From the NCBI GenBank assembly GCA_009760855.2, contig WPIO01000064.1, forward strand, positions 1,558,501 through 1,622,500: a stretch of 64,000 nt of DNA. Direction: 5' to 3'. Positions 2,160-64,000 of the stretch are shown piece after piece. A program made the translations under genes and the position numbers. The DNA comes from Cristatella mucedo (taxonomy: Eukaryota > Bryozoa > Phylactolaemata > Cristatellidae). Positions within the stretch are counted from its first letter, which is position 1. Each line of letters begins with the position of its first letter. The notes beneath the pieces were generated by a model. The model had not been told where the DNA came from and did no database searches. It saw only the letters and a list, made by a program, of their open reading frames with translations.

Positions 2160-2241
2160 CCCCAGGCCTAGAGAGATATTCTTGAGGCTTCTCTCCTGCT
2201 TTGACGACATCTAAAAAGAAGCTTAAAACACGCCTGTTTAT
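2160..2241 (+). mobile_element. LINE-B C-terminal fragment (left half of split copy)
   Basis: The last codons of a LINE ORF are recognisable: the frame around 2200-2236 gives a KKLKTRLF-like end, matching KKNLKTHLS of the LINE-B copy at 53.5 kb. The element then stops at 2241, where a Copia retrotransposon begins, and resumes at 7098-7103 with CCAGCATTTAGCGGG. That is the same order as at 53.56 kb (CAGCATTTAGTGGG). This is therefore the left half of a LINE-B interrupted by Copia. Confidence 0.7.
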
Positions 2242-2417
2242 CGTTGGCTGAATCCGCTTTAAAGCCATTGCGCCGTGTGGTTTCAACCTTGACCCGAAGC
2301 AGCACCGGTTGATTCAGGACACCACGTCAATTTTTTGTAGCCATAGACCACTATTGATTGGCTGGATGTCACGTGTACCTGGGTCGCTTCAGCTACGGCT
2401 TATCGAAAGTGTTCCGG

Positions 2418-2423
2418 AAGAGA
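2418..2423. repeat. target-site duplication AAGAGA (left) of LINE-A
   Basis: AAGAGA here and at 3744-3749 flank the LINE-A copy exactly. The uninterrupted 3' LTR carries a single AAGAGA at the equivalent place (near 6878), which proves the insertion point. Confidence 0.9.
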
Positions 2424-3743
2424 TCTGTCTGCTGCCTTCAACACCATTGATCACGAAGTTCTGCTTGAACGATTGAGGACAACGATCGGTCTGGCAGACG
2501 AAGCACTGGCGTGGTTTAAATCATACTTGTCTGATCGTGTTCAATCCGTGTCGTGTGGGGGTCAGGTCTCAGACATGAGAAGGGTCACCTGTGGAGTCCC
2601 TCAAGGGTCTGTACTCGGTCCCTTGCTGTTCTCCATTTATACACAACCTCTGGGAAAAGTGATTAAGGCCCATGGAATAGGATATCACTTCTATGCTGAC
2701 GATACTCAGTTGTATTTGTCATTTAAGCCGTCGGAATCTGCTGCAGCAACTGAGAAACTGAATGCTTGCCTTGCCGATATTCGATCCTGGATGTCGGAAA
2801 ACTTCCTGAAATTAAATGACGATAAAACCGAACTGCTTCTCATAGGACACCCTAAGCGTGTGGCTGGATTAAAAGGCTTTGCTCTTCTAATAGGTGATGC
2901 TATTGTGCGACCTTCACCACGTGCTCGTAATCAAGGTGTCGTGTTCGACAGCTGCCTCAATTTCAAAAGCTTCATTCAGAAGACTGCCTCTACAGCTAGC
3001 CATCACATCCGATCCATATCCAAGATTAGAAGCTGTCTCCCACAGTGGCTTGTAAAAAATTTAACTAGCTCTTTAGTTCTGTCTCGGCTTGATTATTGTA
3101 ATTCCCTTTTGGCTGGGCTACCAAAGAAAGCTATTATGCCACTACAGCGGACTATGAATATGGCTGCAAGGCTGGTCTTCAAGTCCCAGCGGTTTGAGCA
3201 CGTGTCACCTCTGCTGAAAGAGCTAGGATGGTTGCCGGTTGAGCAAAGGATACAGAGCAAAGTTCTTACGCTGACCCACAAGGCCCGCCACGGCTTGGCT
3301 CCTTCGTACCTAGCTGAACTGCTGCATCAGTTTCAGCCTGTTCGCGCCCTCAGGTCCTGTGTGGACAATCAATTAGCTGTCCCATTCCTCCGCCTAAAGA
3401 CCGTTGGCGACAGAAGCTTTAGCTCTGCAGGTCCTAGACTGTGGAACTCGCTTCCACAATTCTTACGCAACGACAACTACTCTCCAGTTGCCGACTATGG
3501 CACATCTTTTTCAGCGGTCCTGAGCTGCTATTTCCATGCTACTCACTACCTCAACTTCTCTCCTGACTCTGCTATGCTTCCCACTTTCTCTTTGTTTGTG
3601 TGAGACGAAGTCTGTTGGCTACCGAATGCGTACCGAAAGCCGCTTAGGCTGTGAGTGCGCTATACAAAACTCTCCTGCGTAACACCCACATGGTCTTTAT
3701 GACTTTGTGGAGTTACTGACGGAGATACATTACATTACATTAC
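2424..3743 (+). mobile_element. LINE-A non-LTR retrotransposon, 5'-truncated copy 1
   Basis: The copy is 1,320 bp and begins within reverse transcriptase motif A ([10 protein letters not shown]). It has one open frame to TGA at 3601-3603 and then a 3' UTR of about 140 bp ending in CATTA repeats. Its order of motifs is that of the Jockey/CR1/L2 group of LINEs. The flanking 6-bp duplications AAGAGA show true target-primed insertion. No endonuclease domain or upstream ORF is present. Confidence 0.93.
2425..3603 (+). pseudogene. LINE-A reverse transcriptase, partial ORF
   Basis: The frame is open from the truncation point to the stop. It encodes an RNA-templated DNA polymerase that would copy the LINE transcript at the target nick. 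Motif A ([10 protein letters not shown]; the usual second Asp is Asn) is at the start. Motif [16 protein letters not shown], lies around 2597-2640 and motif [12 protein letters not shown], around 2692-2724. A conserved LINE tail follows ([20 protein letters not shown], then [12 protein letters not shown]). The N-terminal fingers, endonuclease and 5' end are missing, so the copy cannot be autonomous. The open frame over about 390 codons suggests recent insertion. Confidence 0.85.
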
Positions 3744-3749
3744 AAGAGA
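3744..3749. repeat. target-site duplication AAGAGA (right) of LINE-A
   Basis: This is the right-hand partner of 2418-2423. It follows directly after the CATTA tail of the LINE-A copy. Confidence 0.9.
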
Positions 3750-4199
3750 AGCCAGTTGTATTGAGACTATTGTGCATGATTGCTTTCTCGGCCAATGGTG
3801 GTAGTTTAGGACTACTATAAATTGAACCTGTTTGTCGCCTACTCCTTTGTTCGTATTTGCTAGGGTTCACGTTCTATTCGCCGGCTGCGTTATTAAACAT
3901 CGCAATTTTCTCAACCATTGACTAGTGAATGGCTTCCCGGCAGCACTGCGTCCCACAGCTTGTGGGCCCGGCGTTCACTGGCGTCATTGGTTTGGAGAAG
4001 TTTACTTGCGAGAATTGAGAGGCAGATGTGGAGCACCCGGGCCAAGTTCTACTTTACAGCCAACGACCTGCGTCGGTGTCGTAAACGTTCCGTGGATGAC
4101 GCAGGCAGATGACGTAAACGGTGTCGCAAACGGTGATGAGAGACGTTCCATGGATGTCGCAGCTCTTGCTGCTTTGCTGAGCTGCAGGAATGACGAAGA

Positions 4200-5690
4200 G
4201 CACAAATGTCAAGGTCAAGCAGAGCGAGAGTTTGACCGGCGAACGGCAAAGGCTATGTCAATTCTCGTCTTGGCTGTCTCGGATTCTGCGTTAATGAGTT
4301 CCTGCATTGATGCCATCGATGCTATCGATTCTTCGGAGGCGGAAGCGAGATGCCATGTGCGACGCTTCGAGAACGCTGATGAGTAGACTACTTCTACATT
4401 AAAAGCTCGCATCAATCCGAATGCCATAGGATGACTATCTCCAGGACTATGCAAACGAAGTTGAGTCAATTGCCAATCAGCTGCTAGCTGCTGGCGATAC
4501 CAGCGATACAGAGGAGCAGATTGCCCTCCGCATGCTTAATGGGCTACCGGACTTGTGGTAGCCTCTAATAAGGGCAGTTGGAGCAAGGGACACGCGCCAC
4601 TTAATTCTTTACTTTGAGCGGAGCGCGGTGTTGCATGAGCGTCTGAGGCGGTAAAATCGACCTTCCCCTTGACGTGAGCGTGAGCGAGATGGCTCTTGTG
4701 GCTTCGAGTGAGGTCCGGAGAGCCAGCAAGGCAGCGGCTACTGCCGCTGCCGCTCAAGGAAAACAGCATACTTCCAAGTTTACTAGTGTCACTACTGTTT
4801 GATAGTCGGTCAGAAGGCCTCGTAGTGCATTAAAAAGGAAATCGAAGAGAATGTCAAACCCTGGGCCAACACAGCAAATAATGATTGCTTCACGGCCGAC
4901 TCGACTGATTACAAGCTTCGATCACAGCTCGAGTGGCTAATAGACTCCGAAGCCACACAGCATATGTACTTAAAGTCCGAACTATTTACCAACTGCGAGA
5001 AAATTGCTCATCGCATCGCGGTGGGTGAGGGCGAAGTGCTTAATACGACTGGCATTGGAACGTGCGTGTTCAGCTGCGTGTTGACAGTGCATGGCGAAGA
5101 GCTGAAAGGTGAGATATTTTATTATTGTAACTAGGCTTATCAAGAACCTCTTTACGCTAAGCCAATGTGTCAAGAGAGGCTATGGGGTGGAGTTCGACGG
5201 CGATCGTGAGTCTTTTACCGACTCTTCGTCAACAGACGTGGCTGCTTCTGGCATAAGACAAGGGGTACTTTTGTATCTGCTAGATACTTCTGTGAGACAG
5301 AAAACAGCATTGGCTGCTCACACATGTAAATTCATCTCTGGTGATATGACGAACCTTTACTCTGACAATGGTTCGCCAGAATAGGATGCTACAAAGCTCC
5401 TTAAATGACCTACTCTAGCAGTGTTTGGGCAACAGGTACTAGCTGCAACTAAAAATGCGTCTACGACTCAACCTACTTGTGCAATATGGGTTAGCGGCAG
5501 AGGCCCTGATTGCTTGCAGCGATTAGCCCACGACCTTGCATGATGCTGTGAGCAGCATGGAAGCACATTTGTGGACGACTGCTATTGATGACGAGCTTTC
5601 TTCCCTACGCGAGATGAGGTCGCCCGACTACCCGAGGGCCAGCAAGCCATCAGATGCAAATTTGCATTCAACGTGAAGCGAAATTTACAA
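4200..5690 (+). pseudogene. Copia gag-protease-RT remnants
   Basis: Blocks in several frames preserve a gag (ANQLLAAGDTSDTEEQIALR, then MLNGLPDLW followed by a stop), a retropepsin-like segment (WLIDSEATQHMYLKSELFTN) and the N-terminal edge of a Copia reverse transcriptase (DDELSSLREM). Stops and frame changes separate the blocks. The zinc knuckle is not clear and integrase is missing. I infer a single ancient polyprotein that lost roughly 2 kb between protease and reverse transcriptase. Confidence 0.75.
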
Positions 5691-5696
5691 GTGTTC

Positions 5697-6480
5697 TAGA
5701 GCCCGCTTCTGTAACCGCGAAGAAACTCGTCCCCCGGCTCTCTACCGGTGGACTGTGAGATGCAGTGCTGCAGTCCAGTTAAAACACAAGCGGCTACAAC
5801 TGGGCGCCGAAAGCGACAGTTTATTGTGGGCCTGTTAGTAGTGGTTACGCGCCGGCGAAAGCGCTTTACGCGGCGCGAACCGGACCGACAGAGTTAACTT
5901 TGCGAACTCCCGAAGCCCGACTATGTAAGTACCCTATGCGCGCGTCGCTAGCGATTGTCCCAACCCCGAAGGCGGGTCGCTACAGCACCCCAAGATACGA
6001 GCTGCTAACTGAGTAGCCGCAGAACACAACATTGCAGTCTTAAGTTGCACGTAGCTGCTCGTCGCCGTAGGTTCGTCTCTCGTGCTCTCGAAGCGTAGCC
6101 TCGCATCGACTACGGAAGCTGCAGCCCCGAGCTCTGTCAGTCGTCCCATTATATTCTCTCTCTTCTAAACTCCTGACCTCGCGCGTAGCTGCTATTTCTA
6201 ATTCAGCATATTAGTCGGTGCAAATCCTGACCGCATCTTCTGCACCAGGCTTCATTCTAACTTTAGTGGGTGGACCAGGAGTCGGGCTTGTACTAGGTGT
6301 CCTAGTCGAACCCGCTAAGGCAAGCACATCAGTTGCCCCATCTCCTAACCGCATCGCCTGCACAGAGCTCCACTCTCACCTGAGCTAGGTGGGTCAGGAG
6401 CTGGGTCTGTACTAGGTGCCCTAGTCGACCCCGCTAAGGCAAGGGCTTCCGCGGCTAAGCTGAGAGCTGCCCTACTGCAC
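5697..6480. other. foreign insert within Copia reverse transcriptase
   Basis: The Copia RT frame breaks after CKFAFNVK near 5690 and resumes at GYFQVDGIEFKDVF near 6490. The roughly 780 bp between has no counterpart in Copia elements and encodes nothing I recognise. It ends with two imperfect tandem copies of a unit of about 117 bp. I could not find clean terminal repeats or target duplications, so its nature is open. Confidence 0.5.
6226..6450. repeat. two-copy tandem repeat, unit about 117 bp
   Basis: Both units share CCGCATC near their start and TAGTCGA with CCCGCTAAGGCAAG near their end. The first runs from about 6226 and the second from about 6343. The copies are diverged but colinear. 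Confidence 0.8.
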
Positions 6481-6484
6481 TCCT

Positions 6485-6650
6485 ATGCTCACGGCTATTT
6501 TCAAGTGGATGGCATTGAATTCAAAGACGTTTTCGCCAGTCTTTCGGTACAAATCTCTGAGAACTTTCTTGTCCAATGCTTCCGTGATGGAAGTAGAGAT
6601 CCATCAAATGTCTGTTTGAGCTACTGCTCTTGGACATCGTCCATCGCGTC
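6485..6650 (+). pseudogene. Copia reverse transcriptase, second remnant
   Basis: GYFQVDGIEFKDVFAS resembles the conserved Copia block around GYSQxxGIDYxETFAP. It follows the foreign insert and lies just upstream of the 3' LTR. RNase H and the rest of the polymerase are absent. Confidence 0.6.
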
Positions 6651-6673
6651 ACCGGCACCGGCTGCTCAGCGAG

Positions 6674-7097
6674 TGTTGGCTGAATTCTTTTTAAGCCAGT
6701 GTGCCAGAGCTATGCCACGTGGTTTTCACATTGACCTCCAATGCAGCACCGGCTGACTCAGGACACTAGGTCTATTTTTGGAGCCGCAGACACCACTGAT
6801 TGGCTGGAGGTCACGTGTACCCGGGCCAATTGAACTAGGCCCAGTCCACATCAGCTACGGCCGATCGCAGCGTGTCCCTGAAGAGAAGCTGACGGCATTA
6901 AGATCGCTATGCACGATGGCTTGCTCTGCCAATAGTAATCCTTTTGGGCTACTATATATTGAACCTATTTTATTGCTAATACATTTTCCGTCTTTGCTAC
7001 GGTGTACGGTATTATTTGTCGGCTGTGTTATTAAATATCATAATTTTCTCGACCGTCGACCACGGTGAATGGCTTCGTGGCAGCACTGCGTCTCAAA
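6674..7097 (+). repeat. 3' LTR of the Copia element
   Basis: It starts with TGTTGGCTGAATTC, a usual Copia LTR opening. A TATA-like CTACTATATATTGAACC lies at about 6949-6966. It ends in TCTCAAA just before the TTTAT duplication at 7098. Compared with the 5' LTR there are many substitutions, so the insertion is old, and older than the LINE-A copy inside the 5' LTR. Confidence 0.8.
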
Positions 7098-7290
7098 TTT
7101 ATTCCAGCATTTAGCGGGTTTTCGCGATTCGTCCTTCGGGTGCCTGTGCATGCTTACACTTGCCGGCTGCTTGCGGATGTTACTACCAATCGTTTTGGAG
7201 AAGTGCTCTCTAAACTGTACCTACAAAGTGCCTGGAAAGGGATTCAGCTCTCCGAGGGCGCTATTTAAATCTATTATTATGATCATGATT
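7098..7290 (+). mobile_element. LINE-B 3' end (right half of split copy)
   Basis: This resumes the LINE-B interrupted at 2241. CAGCATTTAGCGGG is followed by the GCGATTCGTCCTTCG block (also at 24.69 kb), then the hairpin GTGCCTGGAAAG ... CTCCGAGGGCGCTAT and an ATTATTAT tail near 7275. Confidence 0.8.
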
Positions 7291-24654: not shown

Positions 24655-24814
24655 ATCGCCTTTTTATTGCAGCATTTGGTGGGTCTTTGTGATTCGTCCT
24701 TCGTGTGCATGTACCTGCTTACACTATATACCTGCTGCTTCCGGTTGTTATCACCAAATATTAAGTAATGCTTAAGTAATTTCTTTTTGTGCAGCATCTG
24801 TAAGGTGCCTAGAG
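24655..24814 (+). mobile_element. LINE-B 3' end, left part (split by hAT MITE)
   Basis: GTGATTCGTCCTTCGTGTGC and GCAGCATCTGTAAGGTGCCT match the LINE-B 3' region at 7.1-7.25 kb. It is interrupted after GCCTAGAG at 24814 and resumes at 25134. Confidence 0.75.
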
Positions 24815-25125
24815 CAGGGGTAGGCAAACTTTTCGGACAACTAGGCCATTTCAGGTCAGGCCCTATGGAGTGGGCGTGGCCAGACGAACAAATAAACAGT
24901 CGTAACAGACGCGTCCGGCGATTCTAGGGGTGGACATTTATCATTCCTCACCCACTGGACCCTTCTGTTTCATACAAGCGCCTGACAGCAGTTCAAGCTG
25001 CAATCAGCAGGACGATGAAGGGGAATCAAGACAATTCAACTCTTAGGGGGCCGCTAAGCTGGACTGTGGACTGGAGCGCTAGCTAGGCCAGATCTGGCCT
25101 AAAGGCCGGAGTTTGCCGACCTCTG
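24815..25125. mobile_element. hAT-type MITE with 8-bp target duplication
   Basis: The element is 311 bp. The left terminus is CAGGGGTAGGCAAACTTTTC and the right terminus, read in reverse complement, is CAGAGGTCGGCAAACTCCGG: inverted repeats with the CAGRGGTNGGCAAACT pattern of hAT (Charlie-like) transposons. The flanking duplications are GCCTAGAG at 24807-24814 and at 25126-25133, exactly 8 bp as hAT transposases make. It encodes no transposase. The target was the 3' hairpin of a LINE-B copy. Confidence 0.93.
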
Positions 25126-25180
25126 GCCTAGAGAGTGATTCAATTCTCCGAGGGCACTATACAAATATATTATTATTATT
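25126..25180 (+). mobile_element. LINE-B 3' end, right part
   Basis: AGAGAGTGATTCAATTCTCC then GAGGGCACTATACAAATA and an (ATT)n tail complete the hairpin interrupted by the MITE. Confidence 0.8.
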
Positions 25181-31322: not shown

Positions 31323-34300
31323 CTGCCACAAGACATGCATGCATCGGCAATCTAAGAACATCAGACCAAGGTGGTAAAAAAATGAAGCTTTAGTATCATC
31401 TGCAGATTTTCACAAAAATTACATAACCCTCGGACCAAGCATTCGATTGACCATAAAGCAAACGATACTGAAAAAGTGGATGCCAGCATAGAAAAGCATG
31501 CGACAGAAGATCAAGTCAATAGCGATGCACTCAAGAAAGGACAAAGCCGAGTTGAATAGGGCCGAGCGTCGTGGCATGCACATCTGGAACCATTGCAAAC
31601 GATGTCCTCTCGGTCAGATTCTCACGGTACACCATCGAAAACGCGAGAAAATGTAGCACCTACGGTGCACCAAATCTTGGACAAGGCTGCAGGCGGTGGG
31701 CTAAGAAAGACATGTGAAAACAAGCCACGCATTTCCATCGAGGCAGGCATCGAGCCAGCAGCAGGGACAGCTTGACATGCGCTGCCCTCGAATTGCTGCT
31801 TGGTGATGGATGGCGCACTGGCAGCCAGGCTGCTGCTGCAACCAGCTGCCCGCGTCGGGTTCACTGTGAGCAGCCCGGCAAACAGTTAGGAGATCCAAAA
31901 ACTTTGTTGCAATCAACTAGGTTGCCCAGAGGCAGACTCCTGCCTTCGTACGGCGGAGCTGGACAAAGCCGCCGGCCTACGAAATACCTCTCGACGTAGT
32001 GCTCACAGGCGACGGAATGTAGATTGGCATCACACTGTCTGGTTTATATGAACTGTGTAAATGAAGAGGCAAAGACGTAGTGGCAACACGATATCAAGCC
32101 AAGAAAGTTATAACGCACGAGACTGCAAAGGTGAGAGAGCTATGCGCTAGATCAAACAAGTCCAGGAGGCCCACCGAATCAAAGCCAAAGCGTGAATGTA
32201 CCTCCACGTAGAGACCGAAAGCAGTACGAAGATGTGCAAGTGATGTGAGATAGAGCATGAAGTGAGATGAGGCAGAGGAAGGGAGAGGGAGCTAGATGAA
32301 GAGAGATGGAGGGAGGGAGGGACAGGCTCTAACCGAATTAATGCAAATCAAACGCTTGCTTGCTAACAATTTGAGGCCACGACACACCAAATACAGTGGC
32401 AATAGGACTGAATGTTTCCTCACACCAAACTGCATGTACTTACGAATACGGCGAAGCTGGGTAGCCAATGATGACTACACGATTGACCTTTAGAGATATT
32501 CTCCACATGCTCTAAAAGTACATAGAATGTGACACACTGGCTTTGCCATTATCCTGATGAATGCTATTTATCAGCTTAAAGACAATACAGCACATTTTGC
32601 CATAACTCACACAAGACCACAGTATTATGTCGACTACCTAATATGGTTTCCCAGTGCTAGCTATCACGAAAGATCCGGATGGTCGTTGTCAAAGCAAACA
32701 CACGGGTCTCAGCAGAACATTGTGCACACACTCGGCGAGTGCCTGCCTGAAATCGGAAATATTCGCCGACTTTGCTTTCTTACCCGTGTTGCAAACAGCC
32801 TGCATTATATTACGATGGCTTTGCGTAACTATATCTTATTCCAATACTACAACTAAGGCAAGCTGTAGTACACATTCCTGTTATTGAGCCAAACAATTCA
32901 GAACCTCGCCCTCTCTATATTTTGTGAGGTACCTCGAACAGATGACAATGCCATCGATTGCACAGTCAACGTAGCTGGCAGCACAAAAGAATGGCCAGCT
33001 ACTAGGCACGCACGTTGTACCCATACATCAGGTACCTGGCATGAGTACATACCAACAGAAGATAGGACATGATGATATGATAAGACATCTATACATTCCA
33101 AACTACATGCCTTACATATAAATAATCATCTGCAGGCAAATTAGCTGGAGCTGCAACCATGCCTAGCACAGGCAAAGCTGCTACCCTCAATACCGCAATC
33201 TGTGGCTTGGTCCACCACCAGCGTTCATCGGCTGAACGCTGCATCCTGAAGCAACATCCTCCCAATTCGTGAATACTCAACCTCTGGGAAAAGTGATTAT
33301 GGCCCATGGAATAGGATATCACTTTTATGCTGACGATACTCAGCTGTATTTGTCATTCAAACAGTCTCAATCTGCTGCAGCAACTGATAAACTGTATGCT
33401 TGCCTTGCCGATATTCGATCTTGGATGTCGGAAAACTTCTTGAAACTAAATAACGATAAAACCGAACTGCTGCTCAAAGGACACCCCAAGCATGTGGCCG
33501 GATTAAAAGGCTTTGCTCTTCTAATAGGTGATGCTGTAGTGCGACCATCACCATGTGCTCGAAATTTAGGTATCGTTTTCGACAGCTGCCTCAATTTTAA
33601 AAGCTTCACTCAGAAGACTGCTTCTACAGCTAGCCATCACGCCCGACCCCTATCCAAGATTAGGAGCTGTCTTCCACTGTGGCTTGCAAAAAATTTAACT
33701 AGCTCTTTAGTTCCGTCTCGGCTTGATTATTGTAATTCCCTTTTGGCTGGGCTACCAAAGAAAGCAACTAGGCCACTGCAGCTGACTATGAATATGGCTG
33801 CAAGGCTAGTCTTCAAGTCCCGGAGGTTTGAGCACGTGTCTCCTTTGCTAAAAGAGTTAGGATGGCTGCCGCTTGATCAACGGATACAGAGCAAAGTTCT
33901 TACGCTGACCCACAAGACCTGCCACGGCTTGGCTGCTTCGCACCTAGCTGAACTGCTGCATCAGTTTCAGCCTGTTCGCGTCCTCAGGTCCAGTGCGGAC
34001 AATAAATTAGCTGTTCCATTCCTCCACTTAAAGACCGTTGGCGACAGAAGCTTTAGCTCTGCAGGTCCTAGACTGTGGAACTCGCTTCCACAATTCTTAC
34101 ACAATGACAACTACTTTTCTGCCGCCGACTATGGCTCATCGCTTTCAGCGGTCCTGAGCTGCTATTTCCATGCTAATCACTACCTCAACTGCTATCCTGA
34201 CTATGCTATGCTTCCCACTTTCTCTTTGTTTGTGTGAGACGAAGTCTGTTGGCTACCGAATGCGTACCGAAAGCCGCTTAGGCTGTGGGTGCGCTATACA

Positions 34301-37300
34301 AAACTCTCCTGCGCAACACCCACATAGTCTTTATGACTTTGTGGAGTTACAGACAGAGATACACACACATTATATATATATATACATATATACATACATA
34401 TATATATATATATATACACACATATATATATATATATATCTATATATATATGCACTCACAGCCTAAGCGGCTTTCGGTAGCCAACAGACTTCGTCTCACA
34501 CAAACAAAGAGAAAGTGGGAAGCATAGCATAGTCAGGAGAGCAGTTGAGGTAGTGAGTAGCATGGAAGTAGCAGCTGGACCCCTTAAAAGGATGAGCCAT
34601 AGTCGGCAGTAGGAGAGTAGTTCTCGTTGCGTAAGAATCGTATATATCACTCAATGGTTGAACGATGCTTACAGCTAATCACTAGCATCAACAGCAACAG
34701 AATAACGGGACCATCCTAGTGGTGGCTTGTTATACTGTTGCACATCTTAGACCTAGCGGTCCAGGTTTTGAATCCTGTTAGCGGTAGTGTTTCATGCCAA
34801 TAGGATTTCTCATCAGTAAACAAACACCTACCATAATTGCAAGGTCCACAGTGCCTAGCAGCAGTTGGGAGACATCTGCAACTGGAAGGGTGACCCACAA
34901 AGACCCATGGGGTAGGTGCAATACACCATTCCCTGCGAATAATGCTATACACATAGCTATACTACTAAACAAGTGGAGTAACTGCTACGTGCTATTCTAC
35001 TTCTTACTTTCTTTTTACGAGAAAGCAGTTTTAAGCCACGAATCTATAAGCAAATTCTTTTGCCATATCCCACTGCACGGGCAAAAAGGTATTAGTAGAC
35101 GAGTCGAACCAGAATGTCTTCTGCTTGAAATGCTATTTGACTGCTGCTTGGTGAGACTCACCTTATGGTAACCACGAATGTCGACGTCCCACAGATGAAA
35201 GCACTGAAAAAGCAGATCAAATAGTTAGGCTCGTTGGAGGCAACATCAGCTCCAACAGACACATTCGATGATCTCAAGAGGCACAACACTGCAAGGCGTG
35301 CAACTGCACACTAGCTACAGAGGCTTCCTAATATTTCTTTCCGCCATCTCAGGCCTGAGAATAGGCAGATAAAGTGGCGCACAGCAGAAACTGAAAGCAT
35401 CCGGTCGACTTTGCAAAAGAAAATGAAAGGGAGACACAATGTCCAGAGCGGCGCCTCCATATGTGTGCTGTGAGAATACAAGCCAAGGATACAAGATGAA
35501 CTGGGCCATCCCTTCGCAGAGGTCGGCCTGGGGGGGAGGGGGGTGATGGTAGCCATTAGGTCAACCACTTCTGCCGAGGTCCATTTTGGCGGTGTACTCA
35601 AGAAGTAATCAAGCATAATTAACAGCCTCTAAATGGAGCACTGGGAAAATAGCAAGGATGCTCGATCAGTTGCAACTATAGCTTCCATCAGACCAGACAC
35701 TTATCTCTTGAACAACCGAGTTAAAAAAAACTTAAGCAGGCACTCCAAATGTTAGGAGGACTACCCTTTGTGCTTTAAAGAATTACGACAGCCCACTTGG
35801 AGGTGCTTTAGTATTATAGTATTCCGATCGATGGTTGAGCCACATGTTACTGCTTCTTATGTATAACGTACAATCATAACTCTGAAAAACAAAAAGTAGA
35901 CCAAGGCACATGAACAGTGGTGCTTTTTCTAATACGACAGCATAGTTGTCACACAGTGCTCACTTGGCACGTATACTAATGATCAGACGCACAGCCGGCG
36001 GAAGCAGGTGTCCCCGCCGTTTGTGCTCAGGGCCCGGTGTGACATGCAATTAGCACAGGCAAGGCCACGAGAGGTGTCACGCTCTAGCAGTGATGATCTT
36101 ACATCTTTCCTGGCCAGCATCTTGAACGTTTCGAAATCTTTGGGGTTACTCATTTTTATAAAAAGGATGTACGTCTGGTTCTAAAAGAAGAAAAATTATG
36201 TTTGCAACCAAGTTCAACCACTAACAGTATTTAAAACCTGCATGGTACCAACACAATAAATAACAAGCACACTCAGTCAGATATGCACACATGCATGCAC
36301 ACACGCACATGTGCACGCGCACACACATTTACGAACAAGAAATGTTATGAGCCTTTGCAAGTATGCATTGAAGTCGATATAATAATGTAACCACCATAGA
36401 TGCCAAGAGTCAGAGGTGGTATATCCATTCACCGATTTATTGGGAATGAAGTTTGCTGCACACGGATCCTTAGTGTGATCCAGCAGTTCGGCATCGGTGA
36501 GAACTTCATTAAGCAGGAGCTCATAGGAATTTTGTGACAACCTAAATATAAAGCAATGCTATGTCAACACAGCCAGTACATAAACTAGCACCAATACGGT
36601 TGAAAAAACTACGAAAGTTTGCACAACGAATTATGCACAAAGAACCATGCCGTGTATAGTGAAGGGAAGGGTATTAAATCGTCGGTGCAAAATCTAAGCT
36701 GGCCAGTAACGGCTAGTCCAATTGCTTTTCGGTTCCTGCAGCATGATCGATTCCATTACCCTTAAACCACTCACCGGCCAACATCTCTCAGAATGACGTT
36801 GGGTAGCTTGTTATAAACGCGATTCTTGAAGTATTCGCTGTGAAAGTAAGGATTCATATTAAGGCCCTTGACACCGAAGTGATATGAGCGCGAAACGTCC
36901 GGTATGATGCACTCTCTGCTCTTGCGGATGGCCTCATTTCGCATCCACATGTCCCAGTCCCAAAGCTGCAGGCACCAAAGTTATTGGCATCATGACGCGA
37001 ACGGCAGCAGAAAGGGCATATCAGCTTACTGCACACTCTGACCTAGCAGATCATTCATTCAGCAGTGGCAAAGTAGCAGCAGCAGCTGCTGCAGCTACGG
37101 GCTTACCTTGTCCGGGCTCGGCCACTGTGGCTCGAGCTCGTCTTTGTACAGCTTTCGTGACAGCATCCATCCGAGGCCCGGCATGGTCTCGACACGATAC
37201 AGCAAAGCTGGATCGTAGCTCGAGTGGGAGTAACCCTGTCACAACCAACACAGCCAGAGTCACTCAGCCTTGCCTTGCAGCAGCAGCACGACAGAGTAGC

Positions 37301-53169: not shown

Positions 53170-53605
53170 GTGGCCCGTGTTTTTTTTAGAACTGGTGTCT
53201 GCAGCTATGCTTGTCTGTCATGAGCGTCGCAGTTGCCACATTACTCCACTTCTCGCCCACCTGCACTGGCTACCAGTCAAGCAACGGATCGACTTCAAGA
53301 TTTTGTCGCTCACTTATAGATCACTTCATTCTTTGGCTCCAGCCTATCTCTCAGATATACTCCCCCATCAGGCCAAGCATCGTACCACCCGCTTCTCGGA
53401 ATCCAACAGTCTACAAATACCCCGTACAAACCTCAAATCCTTTGGAGACCGTGCATTTAGTTTCTACGCTCCCAAAGCCTCGAACTCACTCCCGACCTGT
53501 GTCAGAACGTCCCCTGACTTGACCACATTTAAAAAGAACTTAAAAACACACCTATCTAGGACAGCATTTAGTGGGTCCCTGGGATTTGTTCTTTATGTGC
53601 TTATG
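53170..53605 (+). mobile_element. LINE-B, plus copy, C-terminal ORF
   Basis: The frame reads RRSCHITPLLAHLHWLPVKQ, SLTYRSLHSLAPAYLSDILP, RTNLKSFGDRAFSFYAPKAS and TTFKKNLKTHLS. It is broken off at 53605 by a LINE-A and its 3' UTR resumes at 54301. Confidence 0.9.
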
Positions 53606-54300
53606 CGTGTATCTCCGTCAGTAACTCCACAAAGTCATAAAGACCATGTGGGTGTTACGCAGGAGAGTTTTGTATAGCGCACTCACAGCCTAAGCGGCTT
53701 TCGGTACGCATTCGGTAGCCAACAGACTTCGTCTCACGCAACAAAGAGAAAGTGGGAAGCATAGCAGAGTCAGGAGAGCAGTTGAGGTAGTGAGTAGCAT
53801 AGAAGTAGCAGTTCAGGACCGCTGAAAAAGATGTGCCATAGTCGGCAGTTGGAGAGTAGATGTCGTTGCGCAAGAATTGTGGAAGCGAGTTCCGCAGTCT
53901 AGGACCTGCAGAGCTAAAGCTTCTATCGCCAACTGTCTTTAAGCGGAGGAATGGGACAGCTAATTGATTGTCCAGACAGGACCTGAGGGCGCGAACAGGC
54001 TGAAACTGATGCAGCAGTTCAGCTAGGTATGAAGGAGCCAAGCCGTGGCGGGCCTTGTGGGTCAGCGTAAGAACTTTGCTCTGTATCCTTTGCTCAACCG
54101 GCAACCATCCTAGCTCTTCCAGCACACAGCCTAAGCGGCTTTCGGTACGCATTCGGTAGCCAACAGACTTCGTCTCACGCAACAAAGAGAAAGTGGGAAG
54201 CATAGCAGAGTCAGGAGAGCAGTTGAGGTAGTGAGTAGCATAGAAGTAGCAGTTCAGGACCGCTGAAAAAGATGTGTCATAGTCGGCAGTTGGAGAGTAG
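53606..54300 (-). mobile_element. LINE-A copy with internal duplication
   Basis: The minus strand carries the ORF tail and 3' UTR of LINE-A. About 175 bp (ORF end plus the first part of the 3' UTR) occur twice, at about 53685-53860 and 54122-54300, in the same orientation. The copy splits a plus-strand LINE-B. Confidence 0.9.
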
Positions 54301-54520
54301 TTGGCGTGCTGACACTGTGCATGCTGCCACTAACCACATTTTTGCATGCTGACCCTGTGCATGTCACCCCTAACCATGTTATTCATGCTGTTTGTTTTTC
54401 AAGCATGATTTTACTCACCATTCAATTCCATTTTCCTTTGCAGCAAATGTAAAGCGCCTAGAGAGAGATTAAGTTCTCTGAGGGCGCTTAATCAAGTGCA
54501 TTATTATTATTATTATTATA
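54301..54520 (+). mobile_element. LINE-B 3' UTR and tail, continuation
   Basis: GTGCTGACACTGTGCATGCT, the CTAACCATGTTATTCATGC block and GCAAATGTAAAGCGCC with GAGGGCGCTTAATCAAGTGC lead to an (ATT)n tail ending at 54520. This is the clearest example of the LINE-B 3' hairpin. Confidence 0.92.
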
Positions 54521-63084: not shown

Positions 63085-63375
63085 GCAAGTGTGTACTGCT
63101 TTAGCGTCTGCTAGTGGATAGTGCTTATTTCGAAGATGGATTCGAAAGCAGTGCACGTGCCAGCATGGCGCGCGTGCGAGTGTGTGTGCGTGTGTGCTCG
63201 CGGCGCTCTTGGTTCGTACGAGTAGGCGATGAGAGGATCCACCTGACCCAAACCCACGGCTATATGTATGCCAGTAAAGAGCTGAAGAGCACCCAGGTGT
63301 ACACTTTCATCCAAAAAAGAGAAGAAGAAAGAGATAGAGGAGAGAGGGAGGATTGAGAATATTGTTTGATAGGAG

Positions 63376-64000
<625 letters not shown>

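Follow-up and report, generated by a model that had tools for sequence, protein, structure and literature searches.

Insertion order in a nest of decayed mobile elements in the bryozoan Cristatella mucedo

Results and Discussion

Four Decayed Elements on Three Levels

A short interval near the start of the window (the whole 64,000-nucleotide stretch of Cristatella mucedo DNA that was analysed) almost certainly holds four decayed mobile elements nested on three levels, namely a LINE (LINE-B), a Copia-type element inside it, and, inside the Copia, both an LTR element and a second LINE (LINE-A). As read from sequence, the insertion order LINE-B, then Copia, then LINE-A is supported by the nesting, the target-site duplications, the uninterrupted paralogous sites, and the graded divergence of the elements. 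Nesting places LINE-B before Copia, and Copia before both later insertions. The first-pass annotation had described a three-layer nest and held that the order of events could be read from the DNA itself; that order stands, with all four lines of evidence concurring, but the picture was incomplete, since a fourth insertion at 5710–6479 had been missed.

The history that we propose begins with a 5′-truncated LINE-B already present at the site, into which an internally deleted Copia-type element integrated, duplicating TTTAT. The Copia was then struck by two independent insertions. One was an LTR element that entered the reverse transcriptase (RT) remnant, duplicated 4 bp, and now persists as a solo-LTR-like block of 770 bp; the other was LINE-A, which entered the 5′ LTR, presumably via target-primed reverse transcription, duplicating AAGAGA and losing its own 5′ end at a three-base AGA microhomology. 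Both LINEs are, from their general look, presumably L2/CR1-like.

LTRs and Target Site of the Copia-Type Element

The Copia-type element carries paired direct LTRs and is flanked by an exact TTTAT duplication (2237–2241 and 7098–7102), just as had been claimed for a Copia lying between two LINE-B pieces. The 5′ LTR (2242–3957, plus strand) is broken by LINE-A into parts at 2242–2423 and 3750–3957 and measures 390 nt with LINE-A left out, and the 3′ LTR (6674–7097, plus strand) measures 424 nt and contains the single uncut AAGAGA, at 6881–6886, that the first-pass annotation had reported. Aligned with each other after removal of LINE-A and one AAGAGA, a comparison suggested at the outset, the LTRs share 77% identity over 387 positions (89 mismatches, comprising 54 transitions and 35 transversions; K2P 0.28), with K2P distances of 0.22 to the left of the LINE-A site and 0.33 to the right. 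The 5′ copy runs CG…CA and the 3′ copy TG…AA, which we read as consistent with TG…CA plus one point mutation in each LTR; these non-canonical ends count against the favored reconstruction.

The LTR bounds taken from this alignment agree with those of copies elsewhere in the genome. A query composed of the 3′ LTR and adjoining LINE-B listed 40 places, with 40 of 2164 candidates scored. All 39 scored places besides the window matched the LTR part only, to query position ≤428 and at 72–78% identity, and thus no second LTR/LINE-B junction occurs among the scored candidates; the genomic LTR copies span query position 1 to ∼422.

LINE-A in the 5′ LTR

LINE-A (2424–3743, plus strand) lies within the 5′ LTR between exact AAGAGA copies at 2418–2423 and 3744–3749, where it had first been placed. 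It contains an RVT_1-family RT (E 4.3e-19), is 5′-truncated within that domain, and ends in an (ATTAC)n repeat tail, which together with the target-site duplication identifies it as a LINE. Its nearest relatives in the window are 97.7% identical over 980 bp (26.0–27.0 kb) and 96.7% identical over 518 bp (54 kb). A search of the genome (572 Mb, 688 contigs), in which 40 of 5405 candidates were scored, listed 42 matches; apart from the window’s own and two partial ones (92 and 93%), these were 97–98% identical.

LINE-A relatives extend 5′ of the truncation point, with AGATCTGTC, and in the five copies inspected, of seven fetched besides the window’s, the 5′ continuation reads CTCTGCTAGATCTGTC. 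The window LINE-A stops at TCTGTC beside AAGAGA, and the truncation point therefore has AGA in common with the target, an overlap that would fit target-primed reverse transcription in which microhomology served to close the 5′ junction. When the LINE-A protein was compared with viral contigs, no relative was found (eight pattern matches, none confirmed). Elsewhere in the window, at 33273–34641, LINE-A sequence is followed by a (TA)n run (34371–34451) and then by an oppositely oriented piece of LINE-A.

Because a single template gives rise to both LTRs whenever a new copy is made, an insert in one LTR only must postdate integration. Alternatively, the source Copia could already have carried LINE-A in its LTR before it jumped, with gene conversion, a process known in general between LTRs, or precise deletion later removing LINE-A from the 3′ LTR; this is very improbable, however, because the 3′ LTR has one clean AAGAGA without any LINE-A remnant, and because the LTRs differ at 19% of positions (34/178) to the left of the site and 26% (55/208) to the right, whereas LINE-A is only 2–3% from its nearest copies. 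Twenty LTR loci, the window included, were fetched, and LINE-A-like stretches are present in the flanks of seven of the 19 others but inside the matched LTR of none, which further argues against LINE-A having travelled with Copia. We therefore rejected inheritance from the source Copia on the clean 3′ LTR, the LTR divergence, and this survey of LTR loci, and retain insertion of LINE-A after the Copia had integrated.

A Solo-LTR-Like Block in the Copia RT Remnant

The 770-bp block at 5710–6479 is, as judged from its sequence relatives, a later insertion that separates two pieces of the Copia RT. It starts with TG, finishes with CA, and is bordered by 4-bp duplications (CTTC at 5706–5709 and CTCC at 6480–6483, with three of four bases agreeing), and thus resembles a solo LTR; a minus-strand AATAAA at 5820–5825, near one end, suggests that it lies on the minus strand. 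A genome search with positions 5640–6540, which scored 40 of 1085 candidates, listed 46 matches, most of which cover query positions ∼71–840, corresponding to 5710–6479 in the window, and in the listed matches besides the window’s own the Copia flanks are covered by no more than a few bases. Over >650 bp, the block is 86.9–90.0% identical (mean 88.3%) to 19 other fetched loci. Comparison with the divergence of LINE-A suggests that LINE-A is the younger of the two later insertions, the divergences being those within two different families.

Short exact repeats by themselves gave nothing convincing as a target duplication of the block, and its ends were settled from the genome copies. The ends could be placed in 17 of 20 loci, the window included (L031, L037, and L038 were dropped), and the flanking 4-bp duplications were exact in seven, agreed at three of four bases in four, among them the window, and agreed at two or fewer in six. 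When flanks were paired across loci as a control, only 1 of 272 pairings was exact and 21 of 272 agreed at three or more bases. The imperfect duplication in the window and the six family copies with at most two agreeing bases nevertheless count against the insertion. Two Copia relatives, L015 and L012, provide empty sites, aligning through the position of the block without it at scores of 96 and 89, where 300 shuffles reached at most 35; gaps slightly upstream of the site, of 11 bases in L015 and of 8 and 5 bases in L012, count against this evidence.

There is very little chance that the block is instead an inherent part of the Copia. Such a reading draws on the block being single in all three loci inspected to ∼4 kb on each side, so that no complete LTR element that might have supplied it was seen there; against it, Copia sequence was found in none of the 19 other block loci within the 1.5 kb of fetched flank, the block is absent from all 19 LTR loci fetched besides the window, and L012 and L015 cross the site without it. 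Its membership in a separate family, the two empty sites, and the lack of co-occurrence led us to reject this reading in favor of a later insertion. Across the 20 block loci with 1.5 kb flanks, a second copy was seen only in L035, where it is partial and in the opposite orientation. Within the block, a 119-bp unit is repeated 1.8 times (6225–6443).

A Probable Internally Deleted Copia Family

The Copia interior (3958–5705, plus strand) retains a decayed gag, a protease region, and the start of the RT, and continues beyond the block as an RT stump (6484–6673, plus strand) directly before the 3′ LTR. The Copia-type domains are collinear; Pol_BBD in the protease region exceeded the Pfam cut-off (E 5.9e-8), and the weaker matches to Retrotran_gag_2 (E 0.015 and 0.037) and, in the stump, to RVT_2 (positions 55–83 of 244, E 0.021) fell below it. 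No integrase match was found in nine searched pieces of the window Copia or in five of L012 and L015, pieces that cover part of the interior, and the RT matches end at RVT_2 position 83–84 of 244, short of the integrase and complete RT with RNase H of an autonomous element. We accordingly class the element as Copia-derived and defective rather than as an autonomous Copia.

An RT piece precedes the LTR in 4 of the 20 LTR loci (the window, L012, L015, and L023), and in the first three the stump abuts the 3′ LTR, with six extra bases, mostly purines, between stump and LTR in L012 and L015. The RT match of L015 covers RVT_2 positions 1–84 of 244 (E 0.05, below the cut-off), and L012 and L015 share 70–77% identity with the window Copia in their interiors. 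Identity at this level combined with a common RT breakpoint suggests, as a lead, an old deletion propagated by transposition, and the window element appears to belong to a family with an internal deletion.

Internally deleted, non-autonomous LTR retrotransposons are a known class, which this element resembles in having kept its LTRs and its gag and protease-region remnants, with three copies sharing one point of RT truncation. We lean toward a helper-dependent Copia lineage, an old family that would have spread through the genome after losing the integrase and most of the RT while keeping gag and protease-region sequence along with an RT stump of fixed extent, which stops at purine-rich sequence ahead of the 3′ LTR.

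LINE-B, the Outermost Element

LINE-B is present as a 5′ piece from the end of its coding part (2192–2241, plus strand, TTTAT target included) and a 3′ piece comprising the remaining end of the coding part and the 3′ tail (7103–7290, plus strand). When the two pieces are joined with a single TTTAT, three further LINE-B copies of the window align to them through the junction, with scores of 142 (51.1–50.85 kb, minus strand), 128 (24.6 kb, plus strand), and 88 (53.5 kb, plus strand), compared with maxima of 39, 35, and 31, respectively, in 300 mononucleotide shuffles each. The reading frame is unbroken through the join when one TTTAT is kept, and the 24.6 kb copy has one TTTAT at the corresponding place. 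That two unrelated fragments flank the Copia by chance, a reading to which the small size (50 and 188 bp) and the divergence of the alignable pieces lend some color, is refuted in practice by the match of the join to three copies far above shuffles; the continuous frame also speaks against it, and we give it next to no weight.

The first-pass annotation had named overlap of the two pieces, or their origin in different subfamilies, as grounds for abandoning the nest; they proved colinear and non-overlapping, both lying end to end on the one 51.1–50.85 kb copy, which is as fine as the subfamily comparison goes. It had also started LINE-B at 2160, which looks too early, because the 34 bases at 2158–2191 match no LINE-B copy within the window; the alignment begins at 2192 against the 51.1 kb (minus strand) and 53.5 kb (plus strand) copies and at 2207 against the 24.6 kb copy (plus strand). 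Colinearity with the 53.5 kb copy, which had been called intact, does extend across the join, but that copy is itself cut by a reverse-oriented LINE-A at 53608–54307, beyond which LINE-B continues. The 24.6 kb copy is broken further on by a 311-bp insert (24807–25133) with an 8-bp GCCTAGAG duplication and ends CAGGGGTAGGCAAAC/CAGAGGTCGGCAAAC, which we take to be hAT-like, and among the three only the 51.1 kb copy is free of large insertions throughout the part compared. For LINE-B itself no target duplication could be recognized, and this counts against the favored reconstruction.

The K2P distance between LINE-B and the 51 kb copy is 0.42 (237 positions), and that between LINE-A and its nearest copy in the window is 0.023. 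The resulting ranking, with LINE-B (0.42) above the Copia LTRs (0.28) and these above LINE-A (0.023), agrees with the nesting.

Two further observations concern LINE sequences outside the nest. The two parts of the reverse-oriented LINE-A within 53510–54519 overlap in LINE-A query coordinates (787–1304 and 1045–1228), and hence contain a duplicated segment. Upstream of the nest, LINE-B-like 3′ ends occur in opposite orientations at 931–993 and 1496–1540, the second match being weak (E 0.003).

Comparison With Known Nests and Window Surroundings

Pile-ups of nested insertions are ordinary in large genomes and nested retrotransposons are well known; the locus is a fresh instance of an already known kind and leaves the general view of transposon biology unchanged. 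Its value is that of a clear illustration, with the nesting, the duplicated target sites, the uninterrupted paralogs, and the divergence all yielding one order. Reading insertion order from which element interrupts which, with LTR divergence as a clock, is standard, as in the description of REANNOTATE (PMC2672092); the principle set out there is the same, applied here to two LINEs, a Copia, and a solo-LTR-like unit on three levels. According to the account in a survey of nested LTR elements in 12 plant genomes (PMC6911290), LTRs are not a common target of nesting LTR elements. The nests described in that survey resemble this one in having mobile elements within older LTR elements, but the inserts there are LTR elements, whereas here a LINE lies within an LTR.

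Scanning the window with Rfam at the gathering threshold, and for tRNAs, recovered only a tRNA-Pro (CGG) gene, at 580–651 (Rfam score 58.7). At the other end, 63373–64000, a long GA run is followed by an AGGC tandem array (73.5 copies) that continues up to the window end.
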